Source: a virus
Length of the DNA stretch: 24,785 nucleotides
Virus record (IMG/VR): IMGVR_UViG_3300046535_000680
Coordinates: 1-24,785 of that record
Strand: one strand, 5' to 3'
Shown: positions 421-19,993 of the stretch, piece by piece
How the letters are laid out: each line of letters opens with the position of its first letter
How positions within the stretch are numbered: the first letter of the stretch is position 1
Translations under genes and position numbers: made by a program
Notes under the pieces: model-generated
Seen by the model: only the letters and a program-made list of their open reading frames with translations
Databases searched by the model: none
Told to the model about the DNA's origin: nothing

Positions 421-2661
421 TTAGTCGTATTGATCTTGCCGCGCCAGGTCACCCATAGCGCCACCGGCAACAAGGCCGCCTGCCGTGAACAGCGGGAAGC
501 CTTTCTTGAGCGCCATCTCGCGCAGTTGCGGGGTGATGGTGACAGAGTGGACGATCGGCGTCGTTTGCTTAACGACATCGGCTTGCCGTTGCTTCAGATA
601 AGCCTCTGCCAATTCCCTGTTGTTAAAATCCCTCAACATGGTTCCGTTCTGATCGCGCACGACCCAAGGGCCATGACCTTCCATGCTAAACTGCGGAATG
701 GTGCCGCCCAATTGAGCCTGCTCAACCCTCGCCCCATGCTTCTTCACCAGCTTATTGACCGTGGCGGGCAGGATTTCGTCATAGAAGCCCTTCATGCCCT
801 CGCCGCCAACTTTGAGGTCAAGGCCGGATAGTTCACGCACAGGACCATGATGCTCGTGCGCCAGCAACCGCTTTTGATTTACTTCGTCGGCAGTCTTGTT
901 CAAATATCTTTCAGCATAGTCCAAAGCCTCACCTTCACTGCCAACCGTGCCTTTCCCGATATTCACCCCGCGACCATCTGGATTTGTAACGTGATACTGA
1001 TGCTCGGACTGCTCGACTTTTAAGTCACCACGATTAACGTAAGTCAGGCGCGAAAAGTCTTTCGGCGTCTGATCCAGCATCTTTTGCGCGACATCCTTGC
1101 CAAGATAGTCTGCTAATTTCTCCGGGGTCACTCCTACTTGTGCAATGACCTCCTTGCCATTGTGGTCGAAGGCGTGAAGGTAATCGTTATTGGTGTAGCG
1201 TACCTTGCTAACCTGCTTGCTCAGATCATACCGATCCGCCTGCACACTGCCCGGCGTCCACGCCACCTTGTCGTAGCCCTTCTCCGCCGCCTCGCGGATG
1301 ACGCGCTTCATGGCGAGATCGGGCCAAGTGGTTTTGAACGGGGCGTCGGGCGGCCCTTTCGACACCACAACTTGACGGTCATGAACTAAATTCCACCATT
1401 TGGTTGCCAGATTATAATCACCGCCAGCATCAGTGATCATCTTGGATGAAATGTTGTTTGGGTCTTCACTGATGCCTAATTTGCGAATTTCAGGCATCAG
1501 GCTTTCGGCTTCTGGCGTGATTTGTAGGCCATACCCTTCCCGCTTGCCCTTCTGGTGCCAATCGCTCTGCACCTCCTCGACAAACAGCGTCTTCTTGCCG
1601 TCGATGACGCGGTCGTTGGTGCGAATGTGCGCGAGGATGTTGGGTTCGTCGAAGTGGGAGGATTTGAACGCGCCGCCAGTATCACCATAGGCATTGATCT
1701 GATTATCGATGTAAGCGCGTTCAGCATCTGTCATCGGCATTTGACCAAGCGGCTTGTCGCCGTACTTTGCCTTCAGCTTGTCAACAGCCGCAATGTAGTT
1801 GTCATTCGGCGTCGGCAACGTCAGCAGCGTCTCCCGGTAGTTCTCGCCGCCGGGGAGGGTATATTGGGAGAATTTGGTAGGCTGACCCTGTGCAGAAATA
1901 ATTTGATCAGTAAGAGCCCGATCACGATCAGCAAGTTCACGAACTCGCTCGACCCTTCCTTCTCTTTCCCCCGGACCCTGACCGCGAGCAATTTGCGAAC
2001 GCGCTTCATTTAGCTGCGTCCTAACCAAAGCACGCTCTGTTTCAAGACCAGAGGTTAAGTCATAATCTGGACTACCCTTCACCACCTCGCCCAGTTGCAC
2101 CTTGTTCGCCGCGATGTGATCCAGCAGATCCTGCTTGGTCACAGCTCCTGTCTGGTCGAACAGGTCGCCCAGTTTGAGCGTGTTTATTTCTTCCGGCTTC
2201 ACGCCCGGCTGGTTGCTTAAGAAACCGCGCCACTGCTGGCCCGGTGCGGTGGTCTGCTTGGCTCCCTGCACCGCCTGCTCGACGGCGGAATAGAACGGCG
2301 GGGCGTGAGGCGCGAGATCGGCAAGCGCGCCCAGTTTGCCTTCAACACCCTTGATATTGCCGCCAAAACCGCCCGCGAGATCCTGCTCGCCGCTGCTGTC
2401 TTCCGCCAACTGACCCATCATCGCAGGCACGCCGCCCTGCTGGTACGTCGCAACATCACGCCGCGCCAGATCGCCCGCCTTCTGTAGCCAACTTTGCGGC
2501 GGAACGTAATCGTACGTTGCTGCCGGTGGCTGCTGGCCCGACATCATCCAGTCTTCCGGCGTCAGGCCACCGACAGCGTTCTGCGGCGGCTGCATCTGCG
2601 TCTCGTCGGGATAGAGATCCGACCGCGCCAGCTCGCCCATGATGTAGTCGTCGTCAGCCAC
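421..2661 (-). CDS. 746-residue phage polyvalent-type protein with EEVQSDW motif
   Basis: Start is GTG 2661, overlapping the portal stop by 8 bp. Residues 1-130 are Pro/Gln/Gly-rich. From about 140 the protein carries blocks that recur in large phage and mobile-element proteins: QQWRGFLSNQPGVKPEEI (143-160), a TKQDLLDHI segment (175-183), and a conserved core HFDEPNILAHIRTNDR followed by LFVEEVQSDWHQKGKREGY (about 336-377). A second block near 449-473 (AMKRVIREAAEKGYDKVAW) and GMKGFYDEILPATVNKLVKK (622-641) follow, and the C-terminus has the typical ITPQLREMALKKGFPLF ending (709-725) before a short glycine-rich tail. Such proteins resemble the large polyvalent protein class, multi-domain proteins thought to be injected with DNA; biochemical role unknown. 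Its position right after portal in the late operon fits a virion or ejected protein. Confidence 0.85.
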   Translation of the reverse strand: MADDDYIMGELARSDLYPDETQMQPPQNAVGGLTPEDWMMSGQQPPAATYDYVPPQSWLQKAGDLARRDVATYQQGGVPAMMGQLAEDSSGEQDLAGGFGGNIKGVEGKLGALADLAPHAPPFYSAVEQAVQGAKQTTAPGQQWRGFLSNQPGVKPEEINTLKLGDLFDQTGAVTKQDLLDHIAANKVQLGEVVKGSPDYDLTSGLETERALVRTQLNEARSQIARGQGPGEREGRVERVRELADRDRALTDQIISAQGQPTKFSQYTLPGGENYRETLLTLPTPNDNYIAAVDKLKAKYGDKPLGQMPMTDAERAYIDNQINAYGDTGGAFKSSHFDEPNILAHIRTNDRVIDGKKTLFVEEVQSDWHQKGKREGYGLQITPEAESLMPEIRKLGISEDPNNISSKMITDAGGDYNLATKWWNLVHDRQVVVSKGPPDAPFKTTWPDLAMKRVIREAAEKGYDKVAWTPGSVQADRYDLSKQVSKVRYTNNDYLHAFDHNGKEVIAQVGVTPEKLADYLGKDVAQKMLDQTPKDFSRLTYVNRGDLKVEQSEHQYHVTNPDGRGVNIGKGTVGSEGEALDYAERYLNKTADEVNQKRLLAHEHHGPVRELSGLDLKVGGEGMKGFYDEILPATVNKLVKKHGARVEQAQLGGTIPQFSMEGHGPWVVRDQNGTMLRDFNNRELAEAYLKQRQADVVKQTTPIVHSVTITPQLREMALKKGFPLFTAGGLVAGGAMGDLARQDQYD

Positions 2662-4987
2662 CTGGCATCACCGGTCGTTGCGGTTGTGTCATCTTGAACT
2701 GTGCCTGCGCGCGCTGCTGCTGCATCTTCTCGGCCATCTGCGCGCGCGAAGCGATGCTCTTTTGAATGTCGGCCTCAGCCTTTTCGCGGTTAATCTGCAT
2801 GTCCTGTTGGCCCTCGAGCATCTGCATCTGGTGCGCCTCGCGGCTCTCCATCGCCTTCTGGTTCTGCACCTGCACCTTGGCTTGCTGGTCACCTTGCTTG
2901 GTCGACAGTCGCATTTGCTCGATGCGCTGCGCGTTAAACAGCTCCATCTTCTTGTGATCGTCCTTCTGCTTCAGCTCGGCCGCCGTCATCGCCTGGTCCA
3001 TCTGGTCCTTGTCGCGCTGGCGCTTGTCTTTCATTTGCTCGATCTGTAGCGCAGTCTTGGCATTGATCTGCGCTGGGTTGTTATCAGTTTGGTTCTGACT
3101 GCCCTGCTGCTCCATCTGCGCCACCAAGTCATCAATCGCACCATCGAGCGATCGGCCAGCACGGAATGGTGCGGTGGCGAACTTGAGCAGCTCACCACAG
3201 AATGTTGCACACTGCGGCTGTGCTGCAATCATCTGCGCCAGTTGCGGCAGTAGGCCGCCCAAAACGCCAACGAACTCAGAGCGCCGCTGCTTCTCGGCAT
3301 TCTCGTCGGCTTGAATGGTGCTGTCGGTTTCAATGTCGAGCACGAATGATTTGGTGCGGTTATCCTTGAGAAATTCCAACACCTGCTCGATGGTCGGCTT
3401 TTCCTGCAGCTTGATGATCGTGCCGGACGCCGCCTGCTGCATTTGCTGAAACTGCTGCTGCAGCTGCTGCGCCTGCTCGGGGTTTTGCTGCGCCATCTGC
3501 TGGATTTGTGGCTGCTGGATCATCGTCAGCGCCTGCTGATGATGTTGCTGCATCTGCTCGACCACCTGCTGGATCTGCCGCTGCACCATCTGTTTCGTCG
3601 GCAACTGCGTCTGCGACATTTCAATCATCGTCACCGGTGAAAACTTTTCGGTGATGATCTCGGCGACAATCTCCGCAAGATCGCGAGCCACGCGCACCAA
3701 CTCCGACTGCTTGTCACGCACCCGCGTGGATCCGTAATCGGTTTTGAGTTCTTGCGCGCCAAGCGTCTCTTGCGGATCGGTCTGCCCGCGCATGATGTCG
3801 GAGAGGCCGATGATTTGATAAACGTCGTCGATCACTTGCTTGCGCAGTGCCACCAGGGCGGTGATGGTTTGCGCAATCATGTCGATTGGCAGCCAGATGA
3901 TCACCTCTTTGCTGCCGCCAAATGCAGCCCAGTTGGAAATCGGCACCAACATCCGCCCTGGTGTCTTCATCTTGATCGCCGCCTGCACTGCATCGGAGAT
4001 CTCGGCGCCGCCGGCGGGATAAAATCCTTTCGCCTCGAGCGCATCGGAGAGCGCGTGGATCCTGCCCGTGAGCAGGTTCACTTCCTCGAGCTGGTCCTTG
4101 TATTGCAACACGTCGGGCACCGGCACGAGCGAATTGCGCTGACACGTTCCGTACGCCGGCTTGGGACACGGGAAGAAGTTTTGTAAGTCTAGGTGCGGAT
4201 CGTCCTCGTCCAGGATGTCTTCGCAACCCTCGCCAACCCAGACGACACGCCGCTCTGACTTGTGCCAGATCTCCCAGAACTTGGCGCGCTCGCGCTTGTC
4301 GGCGCCGCCAACTTCTTTCGTATCTCTATCAACTTTGTAGTCGGCCTCCTGATAGGCGTCGCCGCTGCTTTCGTAAAAGCGTTTGCGCGCCTCGCCTCTG
4401 GTCAAGTAGCTGGCGGCCGCAACCCACGTCACCTCCTGCCAGCAGCGACTGATCGAATGCAGAAAGTCGCGCCGGTGCTTGAAGTCGATGCAGACGCGCT
4501 CGGTTGAGTAGTAGCCGGTTGTATCCTTCTTGGCCTCGTACCGACACCAGGGAACGCCGCGGCCGATCAGTGCGACGTCGTCGCGCAACAGCATCATTAC
4601 GTCATTGATACGGGTCAGGTCGAAGGCAACAACCGTACATCGCTCGAGCAGCTCGCTGGCAGCTTGGGGGACAGCTCGCCTGTCCTTGAACTTGGGCACC
4701 ACAACGGGGACAGGCGGCTTGGCGTAGATCGATGGCTTGAGCACCTCACAATTCGCCCAGAATATCTGGTACTCCTTGTCGCGCGCCATATTCGACAGAC
4801 GCTCGAGCGATGCATACTGCTTGTCGATCTTGTCGCAGTGATCGTGCCACTTCTCGAAAACCTTCTCGCTCTCGGTCAGCAAGTTGAGCCAAGCCTTGGC
4901 CTTCTTGGGTTCGATCGCCGGATTATATTCCAGGTCGTCGTGCCGCACGTCGGGATCGGCCGCTGCATTTGGTTTCTTAACTGCCAT
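2654..4987 (-). CDS. Phage portal protein (P22/podovirus-like, long form)
   Basis: The 777-residue product looks like a long podovirus-type portal, the dodecameric ring at the capsid vertex through which DNA is packaged and ejected. Characteristic blocks are ANCEVLKPSIYAKPPVPVVV (78-97) with FKDRR just after it, DDVALIGRGVPWCRYE (136-151), the SLVPVPDVLQYKDQLEEVN segment (286-304, stem/clip region) and QIIGLSDIMRGQTDPQETLG (391-410). Residues about 459-520 are extremely Gln-rich and 620-777 are a charged, Gln/Met-rich helical tail that could form the long C-terminal barrel known from P22. Start ATG 4987 has GGGGTGG upstream. It is preceded by tiny ORFs and followed by the polyvalent-type gene with an 8-bp overlap. 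Identification as portal is strong; assignment to P22 type is inference. Confidence 0.92.
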   Translation of the reverse strand: MAVKKPNAAADPDVRHDDLEYNPAIEPKKAKAWLNLLTESEKVFEKWHDHCDKIDKQYASLERLSNMARDKEYQIFWANCEVLKPSIYAKPPVPVVVPKFKDRRAVPQAASELLERCTVVAFDLTRINDVMMLLRDDVALIGRGVPWCRYEAKKDTTGYYSTERVCIDFKHRRDFLHSISRCWQEVTWVAAASYLTRGEARKRFYESSGDAYQEADYKVDRDTKEVGGADKRERAKFWEIWHKSERRVVWVGEGCEDILDEDDPHLDLQNFFPCPKPAYGTCQRNSLVPVPDVLQYKDQLEEVNLLTGRIHALSDALEAKGFYPAGGAEISDAVQAAIKMKTPGRMLVPISNWAAFGGSKEVIIWLPIDMIAQTITALVALRKQVIDDVYQIIGLSDIMRGQTDPQETLGAQELKTDYGSTRVRDKQSELVRVARDLAEIVAEIITEKFSPVTMIEMSQTQLPTKQMVQRQIQQVVEQMQQHHQQALTMIQQPQIQQMAQQNPEQAQQLQQQFQQMQQAASGTIIKLQEKPTIEQVLEFLKDNRTKSFVLDIETDSTIQADENAEKQRRSEFVGVLGGLLPQLAQMIAAQPQCATFCGELLKFATAPFRAGRSLDGAIDDLVAQMEQQGSQNQTDNNPAQINAKTALQIEQMKDKRQRDKDQMDQAMTAAELKQKDDHKKMELFNAQRIEQMRLSTKQGDQQAKVQVQNQKAMESREAHQMQMLEGQQDMQINREKAEADIQKSIASRAQMAEKMQQQRAQAQFKMTQPQRPVMPGG

Positions 4988-5384: not shown

Positions 5385-5566
5385 ACCAATTCCCCCACAG
5401 CTGCGATCGCGGCGATAGCCGCATCGTCATAGCCGCCTTTCTTAACCGGACACTCGACGCGACCGCGGTTGGCCGGATGCTGACAACAGCTCGAACCCTC
5501 GCACGATCGTGACATGCAGATTGCTTCGGCGACACGGCGCAATCCGTCATCAGTAAACAACTTCAC
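5381..5566 (-). CDS. Small cysteine-rich phage protein, 61 residues
   Basis: Start is GTG 5566, overlapping the terminase stop by 4 bp (GTGA). The middle of the protein carries five cysteines and one histidine close together: C17, C22, C27, C28, H30 and C39 (CMSRSCEGSSCCQHPANRG then VEC). This spacing could bind zinc, although it matches no finger I can name. The N-terminus (LFTDDGLRRVAEAICMSR) is helical and the C-terminus is Ala/Ile-rich. Small proteins of this kind are frequent beside terminases in phages of rhizobia. Function unknown. Confidence 0.65.
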   Translation of the reverse strand: MKLFTDDGLRRVAEAICMSRSCEGSSCCQHPANRGRVECPVKKGGYDDAAIAAIAAVGELV

Positions 5567-6939
5567 AGCCGGATCCCCTTGCGCTCTTCTACCGGCAACG
5601 GAATGTGCCAGCCTGGTTCTGGTTCTTCAGCCACCTGGCGCCGCTCTGCCTGACGCCATGCGAGCGATAGGTAACGAAACGCCGCGGCCGGATGCGCTGT
5701 CCAATCGTGCACGTCGGATTGTCGGAAGGCTTTCTTCTCATCATCCCACTCGCGACGGTATTGTTCGAGCGCGCTGATGCCGGTTTCTTCCGTCCTCGGA
5801 TGAAACACGCACAACGGCAACGTACGGCGGGCTGCGTTGATGCCGTCCTGAAACGTCGCGAACGGAACGAGTTGGGGTTTGAGCCCCAACGCCGACATGG
5901 TTTCGACGCGCGTCTTGCCAGTGCCCCACTCTTTTATTTTCGCATCATGAGGAACATAGTCCGTGCCATGCATCCACCCGTATTTGCGCTCGCGTTCCTC
6001 AATGACCGTTGCGTAATGCTCAACGCCGACGCCACTAGCCGCGTAGTGGTCAAGGATGAAGAGCTGCGCGCCGACGATCTGAAACCACCAAATGCTCGTA
6101 TCGTCTTTCACTCCCAAGTCCCACGCGCGATGTACGAACTGGCCTGGAATGGCCTCAACCTCAACAATTCGCCCTTCATTGCGGACATCGGCCATTTCGA
6201 GCGCAAAGTACGCACCCAAGATGGAAGCCTGCCAATCACAATAATACTCTTGAAGATATTGGGCGCGGCCGACATCGGCCCCGTATAGCGCCGTGTACTC
6301 CTTCAGCGTTTCTGCGAGAGCAGCCTTAGTGAGTGCATGCGTATCATCAACGGTGAGGAGTTGGGAGAACCACTCTGATGATTGAGCCGAATGCCGAAAC
6401 ATCTCGAACGCATGATTGCGTCCGCGGGGAGTAGTGATGAATGCCGCCCAGCCGTTGTTCTCCTCGAGCATCGGTCGGTGATAGGCCCAGGCGCTTGGGT
6501 TGGCGAGCGCCCACTCTGAGTAGACAATGCCGGCGACTGAGGCGCCGACGGTGGCGTTGTAGGTATCACTGCCAATGCATTGCCAGGTTGATCCGTTTCT
6601 AAGCCTGATAAACATCTCGTTGTCGTTAGTGCTGTCGCGGATCTGTTTGGGAAAAACTTCATCAATTCTCCTCTTGCCGGTGTGTGCGTTGATCGCTGTC
6701 CAGATCGCTTTGCGTGACTGTGCATACTCGGGAAGACAGTGCCAGTAATTGCCGACACGCTCCATCATCGACACCGCAGTGTGGTGCAAGCACACTTCAT
6801 CTTTGCCAGCACGACGATGCCACACAGCCATCGCGCGCTTACCGTCACGCGCCAAGTATTGCCACAACTTTTCCTGGTGCGGCCGCGGATGCCAGTTGTT
6901 GTATGGCACATCGATCTTAAGTTTTACCGTCGTCGTCAT
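5563..6939 (-). CDS. terL: Terminase large subunit (DNA-packaging ATPase/nuclease)
   Basis: The 458-residue product is a large terminase: it powers DNA translocation into the prohead through the portal and cuts the concatemer. The ATPase half has an adenine-binding NNWHPRPHQEKLW region (14-26), a deviant Walker A HRRAGKD (41-47), a Walker-B-like IVYSE (138-142) and a coupling motif FITTPRGRN (168-176). The RNase H-like nuclease half shows AWDLGVKDD (272-280, Asp274 likely metal ligand) and a late SDVHDWTAHPAAAFRY (408-423, Asp409/Asp412). Start ATG 6939 lies 23 bp inside the small-terminase-like gene with GAAGG just before it. Length is typical of this family. The Walker motifs deviate from textbook form in a way usual for these terminases. 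Confidence 0.93.
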   Translation of the reverse strand: MTTTVKLKIDVPYNNWHPRPHQEKLWQYLARDGKRAMAVWHRRAGKDEVCLHHTAVSMMERVGNYWHCLPEYAQSRKAIWTAINAHTGKRRIDEVFPKQIRDSTNDNEMFIRLRNGSTWQCIGSDTYNATVGASVAGIVYSEWALANPSAWAYHRPMLEENNGWAAFITTPRGRNHAFEMFRHSAQSSEWFSQLLTVDDTHALTKAALAETLKEYTALYGADVGRAQYLQEYYCDWQASILGAYFALEMADVRNEGRIVEVEAIPGQFVHRAWDLGVKDDTSIWWFQIVGAQLFILDHYAASGVGVEHYATVIEERERKYGWMHGTDYVPHDAKIKEWGTGKTRVETMSALGLKPQLVPFATFQDGINAARRTLPLCVFHPRTEETGISALEQYRREWDDEKKAFRQSDVHDWTAHPAAAFRYLSLAWRQAERRQVAEEPEPGWHIPLPVEERKGIRL

Positions 6940-16354: not shown

Positions 16355-16756
16355 ATGACTGACGCTACGTTGAGAGAATTACGCCGCAACGGCAAACCGC
16401 CGGCACCACCGCCACCCTTACAACCCACACCGGAAGAACTGGCGGTCAAGACCGCGGTCGAGCATCACGTCGCCAGCTATCAGCGGCTGCAGCTCGAGCG
16501 CGACGAGGCGCGTACCCTGGCGAACAAGCAAGAGCAGATGCTCACCGTCGCGCGCATCGAGATCGAAGGCCTGCGCGCTGAGTTGTCCGCTTCGCAGTCG
16601 CGCATCGCCTCCTACCAGCACGAGCGGGATGACGCCATTGCGGTCTCTGCCAGCTGGGAAGGACTGTTCATCGATGTCAGCGCCATGATGCGCGCGCGCG
16701 GCATTCCGGCCGGCCCACACATCAGGGAAAAAATTAGTGACAAAGCGCCTGATTGA
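16355..16756 (+). CDS. Coiled-coil phage protein, 133 residues
   Basis: ATG 16355 has a strong GGAGGGC ribosome site. Residues 12-27 are Pro-rich (GKPPAPPPPLQPTPEE) and about 35-100 form a long charged coiled coil (QRLQLERDEARTLANKQEQM, IEGLRAELSASQSRIASYQH). No membrane segment. It is the first gene of the plus-strand accessory operon and overlaps the next by 20 bp. Coiled-coil proteins of this type appear in many phages without known role. Confidence 0.75.
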   Translation: MTDATLRELRRNGKPPAPPPPLQPTPEELAVKTAVEHHVASYQRLQLERDEARTLANKQEQMLTVARIEIEGLRAELSASQSRIASYQHERDDAIAVSASWEGLFIDVSAMMRARGIPAGPHIREKISDKAPD

Positions 16757-16937
16757 TCGCGACGAGCTGTGGACGCTGTTCGTCATGCACTACTGGGACA
16801 GCTTCCAAAAAGATCGCGACCTGATCCTGTCGCATATCAACGACGTGATGATGATGGTGAAAGATGAAACCCCTGCCCCCCGACGTTCCACGGTGCCGCG
16901 GCCTGCGCCCAGGAATGCCATGCCCCGTGCCAGATGA
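16737..16937 (+). CDS. Small phage protein, 66 residues
   Basis: Starts GTG 16737 with CAGGGA upstream, inside the end of the coiled-coil gene. The first 42 residues are a good helical protein-like stretch (KRLIDRDELWTLFVMHYWDS, KDRDLILSHINDVMMMV); the remainder is Pro/Arg-rich and overlaps the next gene by 74 bp, where the other frame is used at the same time. Function unknown. Confidence 0.6.
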   Translation: MTKRLIDRDELWTLFVMHYWDSFQKDRDLILSHINDVMMMVKDETPAPRRSTVPRPAPRNAMPRAR

Positions 16938-17439
16938 CTGCGATTGCAAGCGCATGGATGCGGAGATGGATGCCGCGTTCAGCATGACCAAGCCAGACGA
17001 TCGCATCCTGCTCTACGTCGCGCTCGTTCTGGCGCTGGCGACCGCCATCAGTTTCTTTGCCGTCTGGAAGGCGATGGGCGCCGATATCGATCGCGCCTGT
17101 CTCACCAAGGCAGAGGCGCGCGCCAAGTATCAGACAAGCCATTTGTATTGGCATAGCGCGCGGCATTGCTGGGATAACCGCTCGATGCGGGCGACCCCTA
17201 AGGCCGATCGCCTGCCACTGCACCGGCCCAAGCTGGAGCCGGATGGTGCGCTTGTTCAGAAAGCAATCGTCGCCCACGGCCCGACCGTGGCTTATCCAGA
17301 TCTCATGCCGGGAGGCGGCACGGTCGTTGCCATGCTGCAGCCAGAAGCGATGACGCGGTGGCCGTTGGTCGTGGACCTCGATGTCGATCCACCATCGTTT
17401 GCGCCATGGCGCGAGCGTGTAGCGCCGCTGGGACACTAA
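16864..17439 (+). CDS. Single-pass membrane protein with exported C-terminal domain, 191 residues
   Basis: ATG 16864 follows GGTGAAAG. The N-terminal 46 residues are Pro/Cys-rich (CPVPDDCDCKRMDAEMD), then a single hydrophobic helix (about 48-68, ILLYVALVLALATAISFFAV) leads to a 120-residue C-terminal part containing ACLTKAEARAKYQTSHLYWH. The helix and its short N-terminal side favour an N-in, C-out topology with the larger domain in the periplasm; the C-domain has Cys79 and Cys101 that could pair. Function unknown; an envelope-acting accessory protein is the inference, given the membrane and exported proteins next to it. Confidence 0.7.
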   Translation: MKPLPPDVPRCRGLRPGMPCPVPDDCDCKRMDAEMDAAFSMTKPDDRILLYVALVLALATAISFFAVWKAMGADIDRACLTKAEARAKYQTSHLYWHSARHCWDNRSMRATPKADRLPLHRPKLEPDGALVQKAIVAHGPTVAYPDLMPGGGTVVAMLQPEAMTRWPLVVDLDVDPPSFAPWRERVAPLGH

Positions 17440-17449
17440 CCGCCGCACA

Positions 17450-17608
17450 ATGACTGAGAACGAATTAATCGAGGAACTGCAACGCGGGGCCGGAATCGGT
17501 GCCGCGTTATCTGGAAATCCCGAGTACATAATGGACTTAATGCGAAAGGCTGCGCGCAAGATCAAAAAGCTACGCAAAGAACTTAATGGCCCTACAGGAG
17601 ATAACTGA
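17450..17608 (+). CDS. Small phage protein, 52 residues
   Basis: A complete frame from ATG 17450 to TGA 17608 fills the gap between two accepted genes and shares its last base with the next start (TGATG). The peptide begins MTENELIEELQRGAGIGAAL, has a central YIMDLMRKAARKIKKLRKEL helix and a polar end. It is a mostly helical, basic C-terminal protein and has no strong ribosome site, only a purine-poor CCGCCGCACA before the start. Function unknown. Confidence 0.6.
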   Translation: MTENELIEELQRGAGIGAALSGNPEYIMDLMRKAARKIKKLRKELNGPTGDN

Positions 17609-17862
17609 TGGCTTTGGATCACATTACGCTGCCAGACTGGAACAGTCTCTCAAATGACGAGCGTACCGAGCTTGTTAAAATTGTTAGCTGGTTTAGTTGG
17701 CCTCCGGGGAATGACGGACAGTTTGCCCTTGAGTTCTACAACGCAGTTAAAAAAATGGCATACGAACATCGTCCAAAAATCTTAATGGTTGGCGATGTCC
17801 AATACCGAGGCAACAAACCCCTTCCTGGTGGCTGCGGCCGCGCAGGGTTACTTGTTGGCTAG
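17608..17862 (+). CDS. Small phage protein, 84 residues
   Basis: ATG 17608 follows ACAGGAGATAAC, a strong ribosome site. The N-terminus is MALDHITLPDWNSLSNDERT, followed by a helix and a Trp-rich turn (ELVKIVSWFSWPPGNDGQFA), a second helix (LEFYNAVKKMAYEHRPKIL) and a Gly-rich end. No membrane segment or catalytic motif. Base composition looks somewhat AT-richer than its neighbours, which may indicate a separate origin. Function unknown. Confidence 0.65.
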   Translation: MALDHITLPDWNSLSNDERTELVKIVSWFSWPPGNDGQFALEFYNAVKKMAYEHRPKILMVGDVQYRGNKPLPGGCGRAGLLVG

Positions 17863-17865
17863 AAA

Positions 17866-18162
17866 ATGAAACCAGACATCGACATGGTTGCGATAGCGGC
17901 TGTCATCATTGTGGTGATGTTTGTCAGCATGCGCCTGCTCTACGGCTACTGGCCGTGGCGGTTTCACCCGCAGGTTAAGCGCATGCGCGAGATCGTCATC
18001 GAGCAGGTGAAAGCTGACGGTGGAATTAGTTTTGAGCCAATTACCGCGTCTCCAATTCTTGGGGTGGCAAACGAGAACGGAGATACGTTCGTCCGGCAAA
18101 TGGGAGGCGGGCCGGAACAATCGCCACCCAAGGGGACCAACCGTACAGAGGAAACTACATGA
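17866..18162 (+). CDS. Membrane-anchored small protein, 98 residues
   Basis: ATG 17866 lies 3 bp after the previous stop; the ribosome site is weak. Residues 7-27 form one hydrophobic helix (MVAIAAVIIVVMFVSMRLLY), then an aromatic/basic segment YWPWRFHPQVKRMREIV and a polar C-terminal tail. Its stop overlaps the start of the VPLPA-CTERM gene by 4 bp (ATGA), so the two are translated together. Together with the 191-residue protein it makes a small set of inner-membrane proteins beside an exported one. Function unknown. Confidence 0.65.
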   Translation: MKPDIDMVAIAAVIIVVMFVSMRLLYGYWPWRFHPQVKRMREIVIEQVKADGGISFEPITASPILGVANENGDTFVRQMGGGPEQSPPKGTNRTEETT

Positions 18163-18926
18163 AGAAAGTCTTACTACTCGCTGCCGTGGCCATGCTGGCT
18201 GCGACGGCTGCGAAAGCTGACATTACGCTTGGAGGGACGAACTGGTCCTTCAACGGAGTGGACAATCTCGTCCTGTCTCCGGTTGTGCCGGGCGGCAACC
18301 AGCCACAGAACATCCAGTGCATTATCTGCGGCGCCAACCAGCCGCAGCAATCGAACACCTTCGGCTACACCAACTTTGGCAACGCCGGTAATCAAACCAG
18401 CGAGGTGTACTTCTCGACCAACGTGATCGGTGGCGGCAATCCCGGCACCAACACTGTCGGTACCGGCTATGACGGTTCGTTCTTGCGGGCTTATCTGCTC
18501 GCAACTGGTGATCCGACATTGACGTTCACGATCGGTATCGACGCCAACGATGCCAACAACCCGCAGACGCTGTCGTCGTTCTTCCTGCTCAACCTCACAA
18601 CGCATACCGTGTTGTCAGCATTTACCGGCGGGACGACCGGCAACATCGCGACGCAGAACAACGGCACGGGGTTTCCTGACTATACGCTGGGTGAGTTCAA
18701 CATCACCATCGGTCAGGACATTCATGCGGGCGACCAACTGATCTTCTTTGCCAACATCCAGAACGCGAACGACGGTCCTGACAGCTTCTTCATCCAGCCG
18801 CTTGCAGCACCATCAGAGGTTCCGTTGCCGGCAACCGTATGGTTGTTCGGCGCCGGCATGGGCGGACTAGCCATGCTGATGCGCAAGCGCAAGAAGCAAC
18901 TCAGTCAGGATATGACTGTAGCGTAG
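18159..18926 (+). CDS. Secreted protein with VPLPA-CTERM (exosortase-type) sorting signal
   Basis: The 255-residue product has an N-terminal signal peptide (MKKVLLLAAVAMLAATAAKA, likely cut near residue 20) and a body rich in Asn, Thr, Gly and Phe (NTFGYTNFGNAGNQ, DGSFLRAYLLATGDPTLTF) typical of beta-sandwich exported proteins. The end is a textbook PEP/VPLPA-CTERM tail: VPLPATVWLFGAGMGGL (221-237), a hydrophobic helix, then basic RKRKK (242-246) before a short polar extension. These tails are recognised by exosortase/archaeosortase systems in bacteria that export extracellular-matrix proteins. No exosortase is in the window, so a host enzyme would be needed. ATG 18159 follows GAGGAAAC and overlaps the preceding gene by 4 bp, which argues that it belongs to the phage operon. 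The extension after the basic cluster is longer than usual. Confidence 0.85.
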   Translation: MKKVLLLAAVAMLAATAAKADITLGGTNWSFNGVDNLVLSPVVPGGNQPQNIQCIICGANQPQQSNTFGYTNFGNAGNQTSEVYFSTNVIGGGNPGTNTVGTGYDGSFLRAYLLATGDPTLTFTIGIDANDANNPQTLSSFFLLNLTTHTVLSAFTGGTTGNIATQNNGTGFPDYTLGEFNITIGQDIHAGDQLIFFANIQNANDGPDSFFIQPLAAPSEVPLPATVWLFGAGMGGLAMLMRKRKKQLSQDMTVA

Positions 18927-18937
18927 CGTAACGAGTA

Positions 18938-18969
18938 CCCTGGCGCGGCGTTTGGCACCCGCGCCAGGG
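18938..18969 (+). other. Long hairpin after the VPLPA-CTERM gene
   Basis: CCCTGGCGCGG (18938-18948) pairs with CCGCGCCAGGG (18959-18969), 11 perfect pairs with a 10-base loop, in the 58-bp gap before the AP2 gene. It lacks a U-run (ATTAAGG follows), so it is not a standard terminator; mRNA protection or partial termination are possible. Confidence 0.5.
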
Positions 18970-18984
18970 ATTAAGGAGAGACGA

Positions 18985-19173
18985 ATGCCGCGCAGAGCTG
19001 CTGGCGTTACCCAAGTCACGGTCAAGTATACGACGCGATCCGGCCGGCCGCGCATTTACAAGTATTGGAAGAGCCGTATTTACGTCGACGGCCGCAACAT
19101 GGCGCTGGGTCATTACAAGACCAGGGAAGACGCGCTCTACGCCTATCAGCGGGCGCAGAAACTCTACAGATAG
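18985..19173 (+). CDS. Mini AP2/ERF-like DNA-binding protein, 62 residues
   Basis: ATG 18985 follows AAGGAGAG; an upstream extension to 18952 is rejected because it runs through the hairpin. After a basic start (MPRRAAGVTQVTVKYTTRSG), residues 25-62 follow the AP2 pattern: KYWKSRIYVDGRNMALGHYK then TREDALYAYQRAQKLY, i.e. an aromatic strand with W/R, a G-x-x-x-LG-x-Y/F turn and an amphipathic helix ending in A-Y-x-x-A. In phages this domain usually sits on HNH homing endonucleases; here no nuclease part exists. It may be a stand-alone DNA-binding protein or a remnant. Confidence 0.7.
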   Translation: MPRRAAGVTQVTVKYTTRSGRPRIYKYWKSRIYVDGRNMALGHYKTREDALYAYQRAQKLYR

Positions 19174-19179
19174 GACCGC

Positions 19180-19208
19180 TTGACAAGGCTGCCAGACTGT
19201 CCTATATT
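19180..19208 (+). promoter_or_regulatory. Second copy of the early promoter/operator
   Basis: TTGACA (19180-19185), 17-base spacer, TATATT (19203-19208); 25 of 29 bases equal the 7990 promoter. The spacer has a near-palindrome GCCAGACTGTC (19191-19201). It is followed by leader motif and the 57-residue gene. Confidence 0.75.
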
Positions 19209-19214
19209 GCTCCT

Positions 19215-19225
19215 GTTCATCACAA
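19215..19225 (+). repeat. Leader motif GTTCATCACAA, copy 3
   Basis: Exact 11-base copy directly before AAGGAGC, the ribosome site of the 19237 gene, in the leader transcribed from the 19180 promoter. Confidence 0.6.
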
Positions 19226-19236
19226 GGAGCTGATCA

Positions 19237-19410
19237 ATGACACGAGCACTACCCTACAACGAGAGCCTAATTATCGGCCTGGGCTGGTTCTACGACCTGC
19301 ACATTGCCGGCGGCTGGACGCACATGGACGTGCGTGACGACGAGGGTCGTCGCATCCCGTTCAACACGCCAGCTGACGTCGTTCGCTATCTCGACATCGA
19401 GGGCGAGTAA
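19237..19410 (+). CDS. Small early-type phage protein, 57 residues
   Basis: Starts at ATG 19237 with a good ribosome site (AAGGAGC), right behind the 19180 promoter and ends at TAA 19410. The product begins MTRALPYNESLIIGLGWFYD and contains LHIAGGWTHMDVRDDEGRR, with PFNTPADVVRYLDIEGE at the end; it looks like a small globular protein with both beta and alpha parts. No family recognised. First gene of a three-gene operon (57, 126 and 64 residues). Confidence 0.7.
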   Translation: MTRALPYNESLIIGLGWFYDLHIAGGWTHMDVRDDEGRRIPFNTPADVVRYLDIEGE

Positions 19411-19411
19411 C

Positions 19412-19792
19412 GTGGAACGCTCGGTCGCTATCAAAAAGCTTGGCAAGTTGCTTGGCAAGAAACTGGGCTATCGCATCAACACCAAGGCGCCGACACAGGA
19501 AGAAAAGGCCGCGGCGGCAGCTGAGTTGCCGGCAGCAGTGGAGGAGCGCCGCAGGCTCAAAGAACAAAAGGACGAGCGCTACCGGACCATCATTGCGGCG
19601 GATGCGGAGTACCAACGCCTGTTTGCTGAACACCGCGTCGCCAGCGACAGGACCGATCGGCTGTCGTCCATCACCCGCTGCCACAAGATCACCGTTGGTG
19701 TCTCTGAGAGCATGTTCTTCCTCGTCAAAGCTGAAGGCGACAGCTGGGAAGAGGTCATCGAAAAAGTATCAAGAAAGGGGGTGACTAAATAA
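19412..19792 (+). CDS. Charged helical phage protein, 126 residues
   Basis: Start GTG 19412 follows GAGGGCGAG, one base after the previous stop; an upstream ATG (19304) lies in the preceding gene and gives an implausible Ser/Arg/Thr-rich extension. The body is a long basic helix (SVAIKKLGKLLGKKLGYRIN) and EERRRLKEQKDERYRTIIAA coiled coil, then a compact end (ITRCHKITVGVSESMFFLVK). Function unknown; the cationic coil suggests nucleic-acid or membrane interaction. Confidence 0.7.
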   Translation: MERSVAIKKLGKLLGKKLGYRINTKAPTQEEKAAAAAELPAAVEERRRLKEQKDERYRTIIAADAEYQRLFAEHRVASDRTDRLSSITRCHKITVGVSESMFFLVKAEGDSWEEVIEKVSRKGVTK

Positions 19793-19987
19793 ATGGGAGC
19801 TGAAAAAAAACCGTTCGAGGACGACTGCCGCAAGTTGGCTGAAATCGTCCTCGCTGACGAGTTTGTTTTTTACAGCCAGGTCGATCGCAACGACCTGGCT
19901 GCTGAGATCCAGAACACGCTCGAGAACTGGGTTAATCGCAGGAACAGCGAGCACGAGCCTCACGGGAATATTCCCGGCGAGACTTGA
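19793..19987 (+). CDS. Small acidic helical phage protein, 64 residues
   Basis: ATG 19793 follows AAGGGGGTGAC, directly after the TAA of the previous gene. MGAEKKPFEDDCRKLAEIVL and DLAAEIQNTLENWVNRRNSE indicate two amphipathic helices; the last residues are polar. The gene is the last of its operon and is followed by the hairpins and terminator ending at 20100. Function unknown. Confidence 0.65.
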   Translation: MGAEKKPFEDDCRKLAEIVLADEFVFYSQVDRNDLAAEIQNTLENWVNRRNSEHEPHGNIPGET

Positions 19988-19993
19988 CTGCAA

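Follow-up and report, generated by a model that had tools for sequence, protein, structure and literature searches.

A phage-encoded protein with a VPLPA-CTERM tail, probably addressed to the exosortase sorting route of the host

The window, that is, the whole stretch of DNA analysed here, is an IMG/VR virus record of 24.8 kb (24,785 nucleotides) which clearly derives from a phage, as it encodes a portal protein, a large terminase subunit (TerL), a primase, a RecE-like exonuclease (a recombination nuclease) and a tail fibre. Between its minus-strand replication and tail genes lies a plus-strand group of small ORFans (16355-19990), which includes the gene considered here, an open reading frame at 18159-18926 (+) that starts with ATG, ends with TAG and is open throughout. 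The relevant features are as follows.

2654-4987, minus strand: phage portal protein, marking the contig and its lineage (phrog_12082, 1.4e-183)
5563-6939, minus strand: terminase large subunit (phrog_2472, 4.7e-30; phrog_2, 3.5e-20)
17866-18162, plus strand: upstream ORFan of 98 aa with one TM segment, sharing ATGA (18159-18162) with the CTERM gene; not conserved beside relatives
18147-18153, plus strand: AGAGGAA, resembling a ribosome-binding site, 5 nt before the ATG
18159-18926, plus strand: phage-encoded coding sequence of 255 aa, exported protein with a VPLPA-CTERM sorting tail (open reading frame and translation; relatives on 220 viral contigs)
18159-18218, plus strand: signal peptide, residues 1-20, cleavage between AKA and D, without a lipobox (sequence; 59 of 60 distinct relatives have one of this type)
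18219-18800, plus strand: ectodomain, residues 21-214, predicted jelly-roll-like beta sandwich (AlphaFold2)
18318-18329, plus strand: invariant CxxC (C54-I-I-C57) in the motif GNQPQNxQCxICG (alignments; distant bacterial relatives retain both Cys)
18657-18683, plus strand: conserved motif NNGTGFPDY, residues 167-175 (alignments)
18819-18893, plus strand: VPLPA-CTERM domain, residues 221-245 (TIGR03370, 26.5 bits, cut-off 25.35)
18831-18881, plus strand: C-terminal hydrophobic helix, residues 225-241 (sequence; helix 225-251 in the predicted model)
18882-18896, plus strand: basic cluster RKRKK, residues 242-246 (sequence)
18985-19173, plus strand: small ORF downstream of the CTERM gene (weak matches to HNH-endonuclease PHROGs: phrog_99, 2.3e-6, for the longer reading 18952-19173)

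The N-terminus of the protein, MKKVLLLAAVAMLAATAAKA followed by D, is a signal of the signal-peptidase-I type according to our own scoring rules, by which the signal peptides of the relatives were also judged. The body between the signal peptide and the tail is rich in Asn, Thr and Gly. The C-terminal tail, VPLPATVWLFGAGMGGLAMLMRKRKK, passes the NCBIfam model TIGR03370 for VPLPA-CTERM domains (E=4.7e-6) by a margin of just 1.2 bits, and it comes close to, but does not reach, the cut-offs of the generic PEP-CTERM models TIGR02595 (15.9 against 16) and PF07589 (18.0 against 20.7). Thus, the protein has a signal peptide, and its motif, TM helix and basic cluster together score above a curated cut-off for exosortase substrates. 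An earlier note on this DNA had described a signal peptide, an Asn/Thr/Gly-rich body and a VPLPAT motif followed by a helix and RKRKK, all of which are confirmed; the 4-bp ATGA overlap with the upstream gene that it reported is present as well. The structure predicted with AlphaFold2 is a jelly-roll-like sandwich of good confidence (ectodomain pLDDT 83.9, pTM 0.85), but neither the full-length nor the ectodomain model had a Foldseek match at E<=0.001, and no relative was found by sequence among solved structures. Many carbohydrate-binding folds, including an Akkermansia blood-antigen enzyme, CBM27, concanavalin A and Fbs1, appear in the list of weak matches (best E 0.012, TM <= 0.36), a mere hint, from a predicted model, that the ectodomain might be lectin-like. 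Several other assignments were rejected, namely, u-spanin, given that the protein has no lipobox and that the gene lies between TerL and head genes, not in a lysis cassette, in 22 relatives; a phage lipoprotein of the Llp/Cor type, as AKA is followed by D and not by Cys; and membership of the PepA family (NF033554; 8.1 against 80 bits).

Relatives of the protein were detected in IMG/VR on 17 viral contigs with a single-sequence search and on 220 with an alignment search; 80 of these contigs, which are predictions from metagenomes, were kept. By contrast, tblastn detected the family in none of the 50,697 named phages and in no plasmid, and the named phages nearest by portal (RHph_I3_18, ppBjS10J-1 and Mwe-JY13) encode no ORF that combines a signal peptide with a CTERM tail. 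Two peptide patterns, which would miss distant relatives, matched nothing in the genomes of 84,980 bacterial and archaeal species. In 385 Alphaproteobacteria, a profile search recovered two distant ectodomain relatives (L176 and L177; hhalign 97% and 93%), which have the two cysteines, FxIGxDVN, NxGNGFSD and a terminal FF/YF in common with the phage family and carry CTERM tails themselves, VPLPA and VPEP; the lack of matches to profile A7 in 399 Pseudomonadota genomes is uninformative, as this search had no positive control. Judged by these searches, the family is phage-enriched, its bacterial occurrence amounting to rare, distant and likewise CTERM-tailed relatives. Since the latter combine related ectodomain motifs with CTERM tails, the phage family probably descended from bacterial exosortase-class surface proteins.

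Given that CTERM proteins are normally bacterial (Haft 2006, PMC1569441), the gene could be imagined to come from a host, either through a chimeric or contaminated contig or through recent capture. Two other contigs, L019 (99.93% identity over 16.6 kb) and L020 (99.97% over 11.5 kb), are colinear with the window through the CTERM gene; this excludes a chimera, as the earlier note had argued when it dismissed an assembly error, and, together with the 220 viral contigs, the lack of close relatives in the pattern scan and the occurrence of distant ones in only two of the 385 profiled genomes, leaves the host-gene reading with a negligible chance. The description of the locus as a phage operon was right, but the genes directly beside it are ORFans, and its position varies between lineages. 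A scan for promoters and terminators around the CTERM gene gave results near chance, and no integrase or repressor of the RHph_I3_18 type was matched in the viral loci. Elsewhere in the window, the gene following the portal gene (421-2661, minus strand) encodes a 746-aa protein with a local match to the endolysin-labelled, 2564-aa profile phrog_7348, which may be polyvalent or associated with the virion.

The family gene is present in two or more phage lineages that are unrelated by TerL and portal. In phages of the window type (L017, L023 and L049), whose portals are about 71-75% identical, the location of the CTERM gene varies, whereas in 22 loci of HK97-type phages it begins 12-48 bp after TerL (phrog_9), and on contigs that extend further the next genes are a protease-head fusion (phrog_617) and then the portal gene (phrog_2271). 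The adjacency to the terminase in these 22 loci suggests late co-expression of the CTERM gene in the HK97-type lineage. Because the gene position differs between lineages and the immediate neighbours are ORFans, the CTERM gene is best described, on genomic position, as movable cargo and not as a fixed operon member.

The conserved ectodomain, the signal peptide and the tail of motif, helix and Arg/Lys residues are found in practically all 60 distinct proteins. A combined signal peptide and CTERM pattern was matched by 56 of these 60 and by 4 of the 1159 other ORFs that reach 80 aa in the same phage loci, which excludes chance occurrence of this architecture; the four exceptions are further CTERM proteins, from three phages. 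The ectodomain, in which GNQPQN, NNGTGFPDY and NDGPDSFF are nearly invariant, is conserved as well as the tail or better. The tail, on the other hand, comes in different classes: among 51 aligned members, 29 end in VPGPxxGxGxPG, 13 in VPLPA/TPLPA, six in PEP-S and three in PEPxxWA. Three of these classes are covered by NCBIfam, with 13 members matching TIGR03370, seven matching TIGR02595 and three matching the PEPxxWA model NF035944 (best 5.9e-10), but the commonest, the VPGPxxGAGxPG type, has no matching model. On a quick ectodomain tree of moderate support, the tail class changed at least seven times, the minimum possible being three, and the proteins of the window and of L023 are 81% identical in the ectodomain against 32% in the tail. 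In all four phages with a second CTERM protein (L023, L028, L030 and L053), both proteins carry the same tail class. The reverse exchange is suggested by a DNA alignment of L018:459-1235 with L031:9941-10702, which spans the flanks, the signal peptide and the tail and breaks in mid-ectodomain, as if the ectodomain body had been swapped between fixed ends by allelic replacement. Phage contigs also encode a second family of about 205-225 aa with a signal peptide and a VPGPxxGAGxPG tail (L181, L184, L190, L191, L207, L209 and about 30 further loci), marked by LNGQNDEVVRF, GAANGNDIKI and DFEH[YF]RIDV, and a third, small family (L198, L199, L201 and L242).

Tails of the VPGP type recur in bacteria. 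A scan of host genomes, isolates and MAGs mixed, found them in Bradyrhizobium and other Alphaproteobacteria, where a genome has several, carried by unrelated proteins with signal peptides. In G086 and G026, the VPGP-tail genes cluster in an exopolysaccharide (EPS) locus with an EPS sugar transferase and with apparent genes for a UDP-glucose dehydrogenase, a glycosyltransferase and a Wza-like lipoprotein. The tails of phage loci L035, L047 and L051 are 93-96% identical to those of G026 and G086 in amino acids and only 73-79% in nucleotides, so that, from this comparison, silent sites have diverged and the amino acids of the tag are under selection. As to the enzyme, a TPR protein resembling PrsT (TIGR02917, 418 bits) adjoins, in the G086 locus, a multi-TM exosortase-like protein (L137:1394-2377, minus strand) which scores 23.1 with TIGR04178 as a protein, against a cut-off of 23, and 26-28 bits in the genome scan. 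In an alignment of this divergent family (L137, L141-L147, Bradyrhizobium), a PCSSLAN-type Cys, the Arg of NVTRI and a His are invariant. Its similarity to the classical exosortases of PF09721 is not significant (hhalign 0.1%), and the PF09721 model likewise misses the family; TIGR04178 detects the protein in G026, G086 and G027, which have the strongest tail matches, and not in more divergent genomes. Among 61 Bradyrhizobium genomes, the VPGP tail was found in all nine that encode the divergent protein as opposed to two of the 52 that do not (G049 and G076; Fisher p = 3e-9, or 1.4e-7 under strict cut-offs), and in G082, G044, G087 and G071 the exosortase-like gene adjoins one for a protein of 77-80 aa with an (A)PGPxAGAGL tail. 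By model score, the assignment of this protein as a divergent exosortase is marginal, and we base it on the residues, the neighbours and the co-occurrence. A classical PF09721 exosortase as the partner of the VPGP tail was rejected for want of association (1/11 against 7/50, p=1); PF09721 is absent from the VPGP-tail EPS-locus genomes G086 and G026.

For the VPLPA class to which the window protein belongs, three VPLPA genes surround an exosortase in G317, a TPLPA-CTERM gene of G056 (L148:264-2211) lies beside a second, very divergent exosortase-like gene that scores under the TIGR04178 cut-off, and three of five VPLPA-tailed genomes of the same order have a TIGR04178 exosortase. The statement of the earlier note that no exosortase is visible holds beyond the window, as none was found with PF09721 in 25 phage records and five host exosortases had no tblastn match in about 84 viral loci; the enzyme must hence be supplied by the host.

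Taken together, these observations indicate, with a probability that we put at roughly 0.7, that the window protein, encoded by a phage of a soil bacterium, is a substrate of a host exosortase which passes its ectodomain to the cell surface or matrix. That the protein is addressed to the exosortase route is strongly inferred, because the tail passes a curated model, is kept across the family and is exchanged between classes on a conserved ectodomain, and because the VPGP class is nearly identical in amino acids to host EPS-locus tails and co-occurs with an exosortase-like protein; the core of the earlier proposal, that the phage uses host sorting, is strongly supported by these comparisons. 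During infection, the protein would be secreted by Sec, as its signal peptide implies, cut by signal peptidase I, with the C-terminal helix then keeping it in the inner membrane, whereupon the host exosortase would recognise the VPLPA motif and remove the tail. The jelly-roll ectodomain would then be passed to the outer surface or the exopolysaccharide matrix, the destination of host CTERM proteins, as has been proposed for such systems (PMC1569441). Both the cleavage and the delivery, as well as the nature of the host, follow by inference. At its destination, the ectodomain would most likely coat or remodel surface sugars, and so lessen the binding of rival phages, and of the progeny of the phage itself, to infected cells and debris. 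Sugar binding and a role in masking or exclusion, which the earlier note had proposed beside a change of the biofilm, are, however, tentative suggestions to which we give somewhat less than even odds. Late expression argues against an early block of superinfection, and a late, possibly lectin-like surface protein would best fit protection of the progeny from sugar receptors on debris, with tuning of the matrix as the next best fit.

Such tuning would also proceed through exosortase sorting: instead of masking receptors, a PepA-like protein would hold EPS on the cells or displace host matrix proteins, and the phage could gain from altered flocs or biofilm, from hosts retained near the burst or from dispersal. 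The EPS-locus position of the host VPGP-tail genes and the CTERM tails of the distant cellular relatives accord with this idea, as does the finding that overexpression of PepA raises bound and lowers soluble EPS (PMC9850573), but the window protein scores 8.1 against 80 bits with the floc_PepA model and its binding of EPS is conjecture, which makes this function unlikely, if still a serious contender. A different use of the route would be a decoy, an abundant tailed substrate that saturates the host exosortase and leaves host surface proteins or EPS assembly unfinished, easing lysis or release. Such a competitor would be expected to share its tail with host proteins and to be encoded in a late operon, which accords with the phage VPGP tails and the HK97-type loci, but it would need the tail alone, whereas the ectodomain is conserved as much as the tail or more, and we consider a decoy quite improbable. 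The same topology, of signal peptide, C-terminal helix and basic residues, would suit a plain periplasmic protein fixed in the membrane, such as a factor for lysis or exclusion, whose helix would serve as an anchor without the help of a sorting enzyme; that no exosortase was found in the phages would agree with this. A mere anchor, however, would have no need of motifs that are specific to a type and correspond to host sorting classes, nor would its tail stay close to the amino acids of the host despite divergence at synonymous sites or agree in class between two proteins of one phage, and this explanation appears improbable too. Sorting by the host exosortase remains the reading that we prefer.

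More generally, we favour, if only by a little over even odds, a strategy whereby tailed phages that infect soil Alphaproteobacteria, though unrelated to one another, equip several of their phage-enriched surface proteins with interchangeable host tags, so that host exosortases install these proteins in the EPS coat, with the tag class tracking the exosortase type of the host and predicting both the host and the exosortase specificity. In the literature searched, by title and abstract and with most subscription journals and preprints outside its coverage, phage-encoded exosortase substrates are not described and nothing was found on PEP-CTERM in connection with auxiliary metabolic genes; the closest candidate paper, on Microcystis and its viruses, speaks of host genes. 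Exosortase/PEP-CTERM sorting is widespread in environmental Gram-negative bacteria and little characterised experimentally. If true, the present case would be, to our knowledge and within that literature, the first exploitation of exosortases by a phage. Retention of the cargo while the tag is swapped provides a natural set of domain swaps that shows which residues make a tag and how tags pair with exosortases, including the apparently unmodelled VPGPxxGAGxPG class and the divergent Bradyrhizobium enzyme, and the swapping of tags by phages hints at the purpose of exosortase-sorted surface proteins.

Phage use of exosortases would parallel both lipoprotein-mediated exclusion by coliphages and the sortase-anchored prophage proteins of Gram-positive bacteria. 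Among the latter, SasX of staphylococci is a prophage-encoded LPXTG protein anchored by the host sortase and, as the window protein would, combines a gene on a mobile element with a product anchored by the sorting enzyme of the host; SasX, however, depends on a Gram-positive sortase and the cell wall and is unrelated in sequence, whereas the window protein points to a Gram-negative exosortase. The substrates of the PEP-CTERM/EpsH system, including the VPLPA class TIGR03370, for which delivery to the surface or matrix has been proposed (Haft 2006, PMC1569441), share with the window family the signal peptide, the tail of motif, helix and basic residues, a body with little known homology and the link to exopolysaccharide loci, but the proteins described here are phage-encoded, display several tail classes on one ectodomain family and rely on a host enzyme in trans. 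PepA (NF033554; PMC9850573) is an exosortase-class surface or matrix protein of similar size, yet the window protein falls far under the cut-off of its model, and PepA is bacterial and has no reported phage link. Finally, Llp of phage T5, an exported protein of a lytic phage and one of several phage lipoproteins by which receptors are blocked, stops superinfection as well as adsorption to fragments of lysed cells (PMC9586334). The window-family protein is similarly phage-made, exported and meant for the outer envelope, and could stop superinfection and adsorption to debris; unlike Llp, an early-expressed lipoprotein, it has a CTERM tail and no lipobox, exceeds Llp in size and, in one lineage, occupies a late position. 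Collectively, the components are of known kinds, and it is their combination that is new.
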